Source: Clostridia bacterium (GTDB taxonomy: Bacteria > Bacillota > Peptococcia > DRI-13 > SV3-B141). From it: a stretch of 59,143 nt of DNA. The stretch covers positions 1 to 59,143 of the forward strand of contig JAHDSB010000117.1 in the NCBI GenBank assembly GCA_018433015.1. The letters are read 5' to 3'. Positions 8,006-11,316 of this stretch are shown in pieces. The notes beneath the pieces are model-generated. The model was given only the letters and a program-made list of their open reading frames with translations, did not search any database and was not told the origin of the DNA. How positions within the stretch are numbered: the stretch's first letter is position 1; every line of letters begins with the position of its first letter. The translations under genes and the position numbers were made by a program.

Positions 8006-8263
8006 CTAATTTTCTTGAGCTTCCTTATATTTTCTCTTTGTTGCTTCACCGCCCCGTAAATGCCGCTCAGCTTTATTCTGCTCTAATACATATTTAACCT
8101 GGGCAGCAAGTTGTTTATTAATAATCGGCAGCCTTTCCGTCATGTCCTTATGTATGGTGCTCTTACTAACACCAAAGACCGTAGCCGTTTGCCTAACTGT
8201 GGCTGTGGTATCCAACATGTAATGACAGACTTCCAGGACGCGCTTTCTAATATATTCCTGCAT
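8006..8263 (-). CDS. spoIIID: sporulation transcription regulator SpoIIID
   Basis: DNA-binding regulator of mother-cell genes during sporulation, acting with sigma-E. The 85-residue protein aligns by eye with B. subtilis SpoIIID: the start MQEYIRKRV, the helix-turn-helix FGVSKSTIHKDMTERLP, and the RHLRGGEATKRKYK basic C-terminal element. Two adjacent ATG codons (8266 and 8263) follow GGTGGGG; the second fits known proteins better. It is followed by mbl, as in B. subtilis. A sigma-E-like promoter lies 32 bases upstream. Confidence 0.95.
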   Translation of the reverse strand: MQEYIRKRVLEVCHYMLDTTATVRQTATVFGVSKSTIHKDMTERLPIINKQLAAQVKYVLEQNKAERHLRGGEATKRKYKEAQEN

Positions 8264-8294
8264 CATCTCACCCCACCTTATCCTTTTTTCTGTA

Positions 8295-8324
8295 AATGTA
8301 TATGTGGGGAAATAAAAAAAATGC
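8295..8324 (-). promoter_or_regulatory. putative sigma-E promoter of spoIIID
   Basis: Minus-strand -35 GCATTTT (8318-8324), 15-base spacer and -10 TATACATT (8295-8302). This is close to the sigma-E pattern GYATATT with CATACANT. Sigma-E control of spoIIID is established in B. subtilis, so the match is plausible but unproven. Confidence 0.5.
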
Positions 8325-8490
8325 AAGGCAACCTTGCTAATATTGCTGGAATATTTGGGTAACTCGTAAAAAACCTGGTAGAACCTGGCTTTTCACTGTA
8401 AATAAAATGAGCATTAAAGCTATTTACCATGACAGCAAAATATCAATATATTGTAAAAACTTTAGTAAGTTTAGTATTATCTGAATATTA

Positions 8491-9135
8491 TCAGTAAAAC
8501 ATTTGGGCAACCATCTTATAATATTTACCTGTTACATTATATTTATCTGTCAAACTGAAAACAACAGGTAGATTGTCCCTATAATTATATACACCATCAC
8601 GTTTGTCTGCAAAAGTAGCTTTTACTAATTCATCACTTATCTTAAAATACTGGTATTCTGTATTATTATATGCAAAATTAAATTGCAGTCGTCGATTTCC
8701 ATGAAACGTTTTAATAAAAATATATGAATTCTTAACATTAACAAATAATAAGGAAGATTGTCCGCCCAATTCTTCTTCGGATACTTCCTTCCCCTTATTG
8801 TAAAATATTTTCTCGACTTTATCGTAACCTCGATATTTAGTCAGCTCTGCTAATGTAATTTGCCCTGTTTTTTTCCACTTTACACTTGAATCATATACGT
8901 AATTTTCAGGTTGGGAATACGTGGGTTTATATGATGATAATTTAATTTTCACCTTATCAAGTACCTGTACTTGCTTCCCATCATTATATGTAATATCGTT
9001 AACAGGGACTGAACCTTCTTTTCGAATATTAGTAGATATGGGTCTAATCCATTCCCCAGTAATTGTATCAACGCCCGCAATACAATATTCACTGTGTTTA
9101 GAACTCTTCGCTAAAACAATGATTTCTTTATACAT
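8491..9135 (-). CDS. putative dual OB-fold domain protein, DUF488-associated
   Basis: A 214-residue soluble protein with no signal peptide or membrane helix. It begins with MYKEIIVLAKSSKHSEYCIAG and has GEWIRPIS soon after. This, with two beta-rich halves (about 1-105 and 110-214), fits the dual OB-containing domain proteins found beside DUF488 genes, which are presumed to bind nucleic acid. I recognise the family only from pattern memory. The start lies 9 bases after the DUF488 stop with GGGGGAG in front, so the three genes form one transcript. Composition is noticeably AT-richer than the sporulation genes either side, consistent with acquisition. Confidence 0.65.
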   Translation of the reverse strand: MYKEIIVLAKSSKHSEYCIAGVDTITGEWIRPISTNIRKEGSVPVNDITYNDGKQVQVLDKVKIKLSSYKPTYSQPENYVYDSSVKWKKTGQITLAELTKYRGYDKVEKIFYNKGKEVSEEELGGQSSLLFVNVKNSYIFIKTFHGNRRLQFNFAYNNTEYQYFKISDELVKATFADKRDGVYNYRDNLPVVFSLTDKYNVTGKYYKMVAQMFY

Positions 9136-9144
9136 CTTCTCCCC

Positions 9145-9591
9145 CTATAAATGAACAATATCTATCTCATTAAATACTTCCCTGAATTCATTGCCTACTA
9201 ACCTTCTGTGGCATTGATCCGCCTTTGGCTCACTACAAAGAAGACAAATTCTTTTATCTACTGAATAATTGGATTGAATATATTCCCGAATATTTCTTTC
9301 AGCCATTGTTTGACTAAATTCTTCTACATATTGGCTCCATGTAATTTCTTTCCTCTTATATTTTTTTAATGTTACCTCAGCTGGTGAAAATTCAAGGTCG
9401 TGAATATAGTCTATATTACAGATTTCATACAAAAAATATTTTATGTCAGGGTACTTAGCAAAACCTGCTAATTGAGATGTGTTATTCAAGCGGATATCCA
9501 CTACAACTTTTATATTGTTATCATTTAATAGTCTAAAAAAAACTTGGGCTGTTTTTTTGGTGAATCCAATTGTGTATATTTCTCTCTTCAT
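9145..9591 (-). CDS. DUF488 family protein (second copy)
   Basis: A 148-residue protein of the DUF488 family. Family marks are IYTIGF at residues 5-10, VVDIR at 30-34, and the cysteine motif LLCSEPKADQCHRR with Cys119, Glu121, Cys127, His128 and Arg129. The conserved Cys-x-Glu and Cys-His-Arg elements suggest a catalytic or metal site, but no member activity is known to me with certainty. Its ATG overlaps the stop of the upstream DUF488 gene by four bases (ATGA), a sign of translational coupling. Similarity to that neighbour suggests a tandem duplication followed by strong divergence, perhaps forming a heterodimer. Confidence 0.8.
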   Translation of the reverse strand: MKREIYTIGFTKKTAQVFFRLLNDNNIKVVVDIRLNNTSQLAGFAKYPDIKYFLYEICNIDYIHDLEFSPAEVTLKKYKRKEITWSQYVEEFSQTMAERNIREYIQSNYSVDKRICLLCSEPKADQCHRRLVGNEFREVFNEIDIVHL

Positions 9592-10232
9592 GATATATTC
9601 ACCTTAACATCCTCATAAATCTTGTATCCTATTTCACTATTTCTATATTCATAGCTTTTATTTACCATCTCTTTCCATGATAGATTATCCGAAAATATAG
9701 ATAACTGTTTTCTATTAGGGAAGTAGTGCTCTACTAATCTTTGTTCTACACTTTCTTGTAATTCAATGGCCCCATCTGCCAATATATTTTTTATGTTATA
9801 TCCTAATTGATGAAATTTCCTAGCCACCATTATATTTCTGTGGCATGTACTCGGATCTTTCTCAGCACACATAAAAGCGAAAACATAATTTAAAGCTATC
9901 CCGGCCTCAACTTTCCTTACACCATCTAAAAACTGCTTAGACTTTGTATATTCACCGAAGTCTAGGTATCCCTTTTTATAATACTTTTTATCTTCTTGTC
10001 TTGCACCAAATTCTTCTTTGTAGTTTCTGTATATTATTCCATGTGATCTCAAAATTTTCTCCAAATTAATTTGATTATAATCCTCATAAAACTTCGAATT
10101 CGGATTACTTCTTACATCAATTAGACTGGTGATTCGATATTTTTTTAGTACCTTAATAAACTGATCAATTTTGAAACATGAGTATCCAATAGTATATATA
10201 TCTTTCAGTGACACATCATTAATACTTTTCAT
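9588..10232 (-). CDS. DUF488 family protein (first copy)
   Basis: First gene of the three-gene cassette, 214 residues from the ATG at 10232, which follows GGTGGTGAT; an in-frame start at 10271 is less likely. DUF488 motifs are IYTIGY (12-17), LIDVRSNP (37-44) and MCAEKDPSTCHR with Cys122, Cys130, His131 and Arg132. It is longer than the second copy at the C-terminus, with an extra charged helical tail of about 55 residues ending in KSYEYRNSEIGYKIYEDV. No clear sigma-A promoter was found upstream; the region to 10300 is very AT-rich. The reaction is unknown. The gene lies between spoIIQ and spoIIID, where B. subtilis-like order has no such gene. Confidence 0.82.
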   Translation of the reverse strand: MKSINDVSLKDIYTIGYSCFKIDQFIKVLKKYRITSLIDVRSNPNSKFYEDYNQINLEKILRSHGIIYRNYKEEFGARQEDKKYYKKGYLDFGEYTKSKQFLDGVRKVEAGIALNYVFAFMCAEKDPSTCHRNIMVARKFHQLGYNIKNILADGAIELQESVEQRLVEHYFPNRKQLSIFSDNLSWKEMVNKSYEYRNSEIGYKIYEDVKVNIS

Positions 10233-10503: not shown

Positions 10504-11316
10504 TTACTGTAAATAATCCAAAGGATTTGTTATTTTTCCATCTTTACTTAATGTGAAGTGGAGATGAGGTCCTATCGCTACTTCTCGGGAACCGGGTTGA
10601 CCAATGCGGCCGATCTTCTCTCCCGCCTGTACTTCCTGGCCCTCTTTAAGATAAGACATTTCTAAATGGGCATAGACACTCTGCCATCCCCCGCCATGAT
10701 CAATTACTACTTTTACTGCTTCCTCCTTGGAGGTTTCTACCTTCACAATCTTTCCCGGTAAAGCCGCCTGTACTTCTGTACCCCGCTCTCCTTTAAGATC
10801 TACCCCATCATGATATCTGTAATCCCCGAAGGTCTGCCAATAACAGATCCCTACTGGGCGCAGGACTTCTCCTTTTACAGGCCACACCATTTCCTGCAGC
10901 TTTCCCTGCAGGGAATCAGTCTTTTGTACATCTCCTTGTACCCCTTGCTTCTTAACTGCAAGGACTTCCCCTTCAGCCTCTACTTTTTCTTGTCCCTCAG
11001 AAATCGGGGAAGAATTGCCCTTATCCCCCGTCAGGAACGGCTTCTCTTGATTTACCTCTTCTTTTTCTGTCAGCTGAGGAGGAAGAGGATGCTGTAGATC
11101 TAGCTTTATCAGACTATCCTGTTCTTCTGCCTCCAGGACACTTTCCGCTACACTTTTCTTTTTATTTAACAAACTTTGATCATCAGAGGTAAGACCCCTG
11201 CCGATAAAGGGCAGACAAAAAGCAAAGCTAACAAGTACTACTATGGTATAAAGGCCTAAGCGCTTTAATTCCTTACCTTGTAAATCTAAAATCCGGGATA
11301 TTTTTTCTTTTAGCAT
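10504..11316 (-). CDS. spoIIQ: SpoIIQ-type M23 (LytM) metallopeptidase domain protein
   Basis: Probably the forespore membrane protein SpoIIQ, which binds SpoIIIAH and supports engulfment. It has 270 residues: a cytoplasmic basic segment, one membrane helix at about 20-40, a charged linker, and an M23 domain from about 160. The zinc motifs appear intact: YHDGVDL supplies His-x3-Asp and GPHLHF supplies the His-x-His pair, as in clostridial SpoIIQ; B. subtilis SpoIIQ is degenerate. ATG follows AAAGAGGTG. It lies directly after spoIID, supporting this assignment over a generic wall hydrolase. Confidence 0.8.
   Translation of the reverse strand: MLKEKISRILDLQGKELKRLGLYTIVVLVSFAFCLPFIGRGLTSDDQSLLNKKKSVAESVLEAEEQDSLIKLDLQHPLPPQLTEKEEVNQEKPFLTGDKGNSSPISEGQEKVEAEGEVLAVKKQGVQGDVQKTDSLQGKLQEMVWPVKGEVLRPVGICYWQTFGDYRYHDGVDLKGERGTEVQAALPGKIVKVETSKEEAVKVVIDHGGGWQSVYAHLEMSYLKEGQEVQAGEKIGRIGQPGSREVAIGPHLHFTLSKDGKITNPLDYLQ

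Follow-up and report, generated by a model that had tools for sequence, protein, structure and literature searches.

Organization of the three-gene cassette

Three genes on the minus strand separate a spoIIQ-like gene from spoIIID in the window, as we call the whole 59,143-nucleotide stretch of DNA analyzed here. The first gene of this cassette (gene B; 9588..10232, with its ATG at 10232) encodes a 214 aa protein that matches Pfam DUF488 (1.8e-18; 67.7 bits, curated cut-off 22.2) and, over residues 10-205, the PADLOC model PDC-M45B (7.6e-48). It is followed by a second DUF488 gene of the DUF488-N3a-like type (gene C; 9145..9591; 148 aa), whose product matches DUF488 (1.4e-16; 61.6 bits, curated cut-off 22.2), DUF488-N3a (8.5e-11) and, over residues 4-148, PDC-M45C (8.6e-51). 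The last gene (8491..9135) encodes a 214 aa protein with two tandem OB folds, matching Pfam DuOB (PF22557; 9.9e-51 over residues 3-211; 173 bits, cut-off 27) and, over almost its entire length, PDC-M45A (1.1e-36). The family name DuOB stands for "Dual OB-containing domain". Genes B and C share 4 bases, and 9 bases separate C from the DuOB gene, exactly the spacing given in the preliminary description of this DNA.

The Cys-x-Glu...Cys-His-Arg motif is kept in 109 of 109 pooled homologues of B and C: C122-x-E124...C130-H131-R132 of gene B is invariant in 50 of 50 aligned homologues, and C119-x-E121...C127-H128-R129 of gene C in 59 of 59. Both proteins belong to the DUF488 family (PF04343) by score as well as by this motif. 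They had been described as two divergent DUF488 proteins that both retain it; the family and the motif stand, but the two are more than divergent copies, as they form separate subfamilies (PDC-M45B and PDC-M45C), each preferring its own PADLOC model. The third protein, previously a putative dual OB-fold protein, is now backed by the Pfam match and by the tandem-OB Foldseek matches described below. Family-profile searches with the three proteins revealed no restriction domains or other recognised effector domains, and sequence searches found no solved relatives of B, C or DuOB.

All three proteins give full-length matches to components A, B and C of PDC-M45 in PADLOC-DB v2, and their genes are adjacent on one strand. 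Judged by these matches, the cassette is a member of this already catalogued candidate system and differs from it in nothing essential; the window copy occupies an insertion site between spoIIQ and spoIIID. PDC means "phage defence candidate" and denotes computationally predicted systems (usage in PMC12429752, PMC11514479). No mention or experimental report of PDC-M45 was found in the literature searched. The novelty implied earlier does not extend to the cassette as such; what is new here is the evidence on its mobility, fusions, fold and insertion spot.

Insertion between spoIIQ and spoIIID

The upstream boundary of the cassette is formed by the spoIIQ-like M23 peptidase gene (10504..11316, minus strand), 271 bases from gene B, and the downstream boundary by spoIIID (8006..8269, minus strand), 221 bases from the DuOB gene. 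The two sporulation genes adjoin each other directly in six same-order genomes (G005, G004, G010, G007, G022, G018), at a distance of 88–138 bp as against 2.2 kb in the window. These empty sites bear out the earlier view that the cassette is inserted among sporulation genes. The window's spoIIID is intact (85–99% identity to same-order relatives), and a conserved promoter-like region upstream of it (8300..8340, minus strand), which is probably its promoter, aligns with the empty-site intergenic regions L184, L185 and L186. Since this region is kept between the window and the empty sites, the arrival of the cassette damaged neither spoIIQ nor spoIIID.

As had been remarked, the block is AT-richer than its flanks: G+C is 0.302–0.315 in the cassette genes and 0.42–0.46 in their neighbours, and at third codon positions 0.25–0.27 and 0.34–0.47, respectively. 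In a synonymous-codon likelihood test the three genes were not separable from the neighbours. The three-gene block is a horizontally acquired insertion. Around it we found no convincing transposon ends: the best inverted match scored 30 points, a value equalled in 1.8% of shuffles, and the direct match was not significant. Between spoIIQ and spoIIID of the window there is no recombinase gene, no RNA families were detected in the region, and a promoter scan of it gave no excess over shuffles.

The spoIIQ–spoIIID spot in relatives

Within the order this spot repeatedly harbours restriction-modification (R-M) genes, AbiL-like genes and recombinase genes; in two cases they lie within spoIIID itself. 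In genome G014, spoIIID is split at about codons 37–41 (L182:1224-1340, 8019-8171) by a 6.7-kb stretch that encodes an AAA ATPase (PDC-S01), a protein that matches models of type IIG R-M and, next to the 3' part of spoIIID, a large serine recombinase. The same split is found across two contigs in G003 (L180:7069-7182, L181:6125-6277). In G001, G002 and G009 the spot holds PDC-S01, AbiL-like or TnpB-like genes and spoIIID is intact; in G001 (L177:3094-3189) a leftover 5' fragment of spoIIID with the element's end sequence precedes the PDC-S01 ATPase gene, which is followed by the intact spoIIID. Junctions of elements at the spot have matching inverted ends.

The recombinase element splitting spoIIID in these relatives may represent a new skin-like intervening element. 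Intervening elements are known in sigK, spoVFB, spoVR, spsM and gerE (PMC4191935, PMC5595907); no report of spoIIID as a target was found in the literature searched. Like skin, gin, vfbin and vrin, L182 and L180/L181 bear a recombinase element inside a sporulation gene, and the R-M cargo of gin (PMC5595907) resembles that of the spoIIID element. The window differs from all of these: its spoIIID is uninterrupted, the stretch from spoIIQ to spoIIID encodes no recombinase, and neither an att-like remnant nor any end of the relatives' element is present. The window cassette is thus not itself a skin-like element, lacking both an interrupted sporulation gene and an element-borne recombinase.

Distribution and co-occurrence of the cassette genes

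According to the preliminary description, presence of the three genes at this locus in all close relatives, with similar codon use, would have pointed to a housekeeping role. Such presence was not found: a search of 24 same-order genomes gave no DuOB at all. Among the 59 relatives searched only G038, a member of the window's class, has the gene, and across the phylum it occurs patchily, in 12 of 397 other genomes. A scan of genome contigs with the single DuOB protein revealed no relatives, and the DuOB alignment was too variable to serve as a search profile, so the survey was seeded with the alignment of C, which was meant to lessen circularity. The survey set comprised 119 loci, 80 from a species-genome collection and 39 from viral contigs. 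In this set, which is biased because the alignment used as seed was derived from loci with DuOB, DuOB is adjacent to a C-type DUF488 gene in 109 of the 119 loci; the co-occurrence that had been proposed as a check thus extends beyond the window. Among the ten remaining loci, DuOB is divergent, truncated or low in score at four (L055, L086, L138, L146); at another four (L059, L068, L070, L110) the contig ends within the locus; and at two the C gene stands alone (L030, L095). A less biased sample of the phylum had DuOB near 12 of 22 C-type proteins, with eight alone and two accompanied by gene B only, some of them near contig ends. C has stand-alone paralogues, and DuOB is almost never seen without C.

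The genome-scan loci most often have the order B-C-DuOB (39 of 80), as in the window, and in the tree of C proteins the window protein groups with those of Bacillota, Chloroflexota and Mycoplasmatota in a supported clade. No DuOB was found in sequenced phages. Gordonia phages encode, as gene 42 (H24-H30), a distant DUF488 protein with about 30% identity, annotated in one of them as a HipA toxin.

Several further arrangements should be mentioned. Stand-alone C-type DUF488 genes lie beside unrelated genes, with no DuOB in the nearby sequence, at L202:1498-1947, L204:452-901, L213:1501-1941 and L214:1501-1935; such paralogues may have a different role. Divergent DuOB-like proteins starting with IITDLT adjoin B and C genes at L086:8620-9378 and L138:10402-11232, and possibly constitute a second DuOB subfamily missed by the profile. 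At L038:8575-11146 two DuOB genes are present, one on each side of B and C.

The cassette as mobile cargo

Homologues are found on plasmids of Acinetobacter, Klebsiella, Citrobacter, Moraxella, Agrobacterium and others. On one plasmid of 4,167 bp (L019) the three cassette genes, in the variant form described in the next section, are the only ORFs longer than 100 aa, so no further effector is needed there. The cassette is also present on the 39 viral contigs, one cluster of which has it beside phage packaging genes that we take to encode terminase. In Escherichia coli a search of 5,426 genomes detected it, at the sensitivity applied, in 12; of the four examined, three carry it in islands at ffs and one in a prophage remnant at icd. 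The cassette is thus mobile cargo of plasmids, virus-derived contigs and E. coli islands, and its DUF488-DUF488-DuOB form, that of the window, resides mostly on chromosomes, with a patchy distribution.

Among the neighbours are CBASS (L023), viperin (L021) and type III CRISPR genes (L025). A bulk scan of 127 neighbour genes gave scattered defence matches and few recurring families and, having no control set, supports no claim of enrichment. The question raised earlier, whether the genes sit in defence islands or variable loci, can be answered to this extent: they occur on plasmids, prophage-like contigs and islands, some beside defence genes. On plasmid pH205 (L018:132-5820) the cassette contains an insertion of ISEcp1 with blaCMY-36, its DuOB gene is truncated and its C-type DUF488 gene is in two pieces.

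A variant form and domain fusions

In 37 clustered loci, mostly on plasmid or viral contigs, gene B is replaced by a gene for an mSLOG + DUF4326 protein located immediately after C. This form accounts for 25 of the 39 viral loci but only 5 of the 80 genome-scan loci. The window has the form with DUF488 gene B, and no DUF4326 gene lies beside its cassette. On the C tree, exchange of B for the mSLOG-DUF4326 protein requires about 2 changes, compared with about 33 with shuffled labels. The mSLOG-DUF4326 protein, which no PADLOC model matches, contains the motif CxC...CHGD in 22 of 22 sequences. This motif parallels CxE...CHR of DUF488, so that the enzyme gained in the swap, like the one lost, has a cysteine motif. 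According to published predictions, DUF4326 processes derivatives of ADP-ribose and forms a bridge between NAD signalling and DNA modification (PMC9503650; PMC7824862).

Fusions of DuOB to RecQ helicase were revealed at three loci, with DuOB following the RecQ domains in L076 and L104 and preceding them in L041. Its other fusion partners are an AAA_13-type ATPase (L082), gene B (L107) and a tail with an RQC domain (L091), and B is fused to C in L138. We take these fusions as an argument that B, C and DuOB work jointly and that their target is DNA. Other DuOB proteins have additional C-terminal regions (L043:10459-12312, L042:7928-9397, L046:7947-9386, L044:1190-2338), one of which matches DUF1351 and the rest no family.

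A superfamily study by Burroughs and Aravind from 2023, cited in PMC12419801, is presumably the source that defined the cassette domains. It reportedly unites RapZ-C, DUF488 and DUF4326, with a predicted role in DNA-end processing in virus–host conflicts. That superfamily reportedly shares with the present cassettes the Cys-motif DUF488, the DUF4326 swap with CxC...CHGD, the mSLOG fusion and the predicted DNA-end processing. The RecQ fusions, the carriage on plasmids and the spoIIID spot are observations of the present analysis.

Predicted structures

The DuOB model has a mean pLDDT of 96.6 and a pTM of 0.92. Its twelve best Foldseek matches in the PDB with E < 0.001 are all HIN domains or HIN-family proteins (IFI16, AIM2-like, MNDA); next in rank come telomere end-binding proteins, RPA and LEF-3, an ssDNA-binding protein. 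The HIN domains of IFI16, AIM2 and MNDA, which are DNA sensors of animals, consist of two tandem OB folds, as does DuOB, but the similarity is one of fold only and loose: the matches are weak (TM-score 0.30–0.39, rmsd about 9 Angstrom, 6–13% identity), DuOB gave no Pfam HIN match, and a sequence-profile search of the PDB found no HIN chain either. With such low TM-scores the model supports a tandem-OB nucleic-acid-binding architecture but not common descent with HIN. In the first OB fold of DuOB, residues S11, C18, G21, R31 and E77 are invariant in 60 sequences. This is more than would be expected for unspecific DNA binding and may reflect a ligand pocket.

Membership of the rhodanese-phosphatase superfamily would imply a Rossmannoid fold with a catalytic Cys loop. 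For the C protein (model pLDDT 92.7) a PDB fold search gave no significant match, tyrosine phosphatases appearing only at E 0.13 and above; its enzyme class therefore rests on family knowledge.

Possible function of the cassette

The cassette has no constant partners and in one case no other sizeable gene beside it, which places the effector among its own proteins. To judge by sequence, the two cysteine-motif proteins are the sole enzyme candidates, and DuOB is likely the DNA-binding subunit. On balance, and with moderate confidence, we favour a horizontally acquired PDC-M45 module of anti-phage defence or inter-element conflict that works on DNA, in which DuOB holds the DNA and the DUF488 pair processes it. 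DuOB would bind exposed DNA, such as single strands, ends, or intermediates of replication or repair, which in some lineages would be exposed by the tethered RecQ helicase. It would then recruit the B–C pair into a physical complex on the bound DNA, where their Cys-x-Glu...Cys-His-Arg sites may perform a cysteine-dependent transfer on DNA termini or on sugar-phosphate or ADP-ribosyl groups, leaving the invading replicon no longer replicable or ligatable. A cysteine-motif pair with a nucleic-acid-binding partner, possibly in defence, had been proposed for this locus before. The PDC-M45 match, co-occurrence, mobile carriage, DuOB-RecQ fusions and tandem-OB fold strengthen that proposal; its defence part is still a prediction, and a moderately likely one.

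The main rival is a counter-defence or genome-maintenance module directed at modifications that the host inflicts on the DNA of mobile elements (ADP-ribosyl or phosphate adducts, for example), which it would repair or remove, chromosomal copies being leftovers of such elements. Repair fits the RecQ fusions, the mSLOG-DUF4326 form is chiefly plasmid-borne or viral, and the predictions for DUF4326 concern ADP-ribose derivatives and DNA modification; but the form found in the window is mostly chromosomal and patchy, several copies have defence-gene neighbourhoods, and defence genes are themselves common cargo of prophages and plasmids. We consider this alternative rather unlikely. Distinctly unlikely is a bolder combination, in which DuOB would be a bacterial DNA sensor working in the manner of the animal HIN-domain receptors, its partners being a pair of enzymes that modify DNA ends and include no nuclease. 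In this view spoIIID would be a skin-like integration gate by which defence genes accumulate in the order's spore-formers, and only in the terminal mother cell would excision take place.

The remaining explanations concern other chemistry or other roles. Rhodanese-like transfer, by which the DUF488 pair would add sulfur to DuOB-bound DNA or RNA or remove it, could use the two conserved cysteines, and published work cited in PMC12419801 reportedly assigned DUF488 to a rhodanese-phosphatase superfamily. It is very unlikely, as the neighbours include no recurrent gene for sulfur mobilisation, such as one for a cysteine desulfurase or ATP-pyrophosphatase, and the 4.2-kb plasmid carries the cassette alone. 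Small coupled genes on small plasmids and in prophages would also suit a toxin–antitoxin-like addiction module kept by these elements; with three components, two of them with intact active-site motifs and none like a known toxin or antitoxin, and with atypical RecQ and inter-component fusions, this is highly improbable. Scarcely credible is a housekeeping or sporulation role linked to spoIIQ and spoIIID. The cassette does lie between these two intact genes, but no other homologous locus is at this site, and we rejected such a role on the absence of the cassette and the empty sites in same-order relatives.

The evidence presented here makes the candidate system PDC-M45 testable. The 4.2-kb plasmid could be used for expression as it stands, the invariant cysteines allow clean dead mutants, and the RecQ fusions and the tandem-OB fold point to DNA as the first substrate. 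If the preferred reading of PDC-M45 as a DNA-processing defence module is true, it would be an anti-phage system with no obvious nuclease, in which cysteine enzymes act on DNA ends. If excision of the spoIIID element is true, spoIIID would be one more developmentally rejoined sporulation gene, tied to defence cargo.
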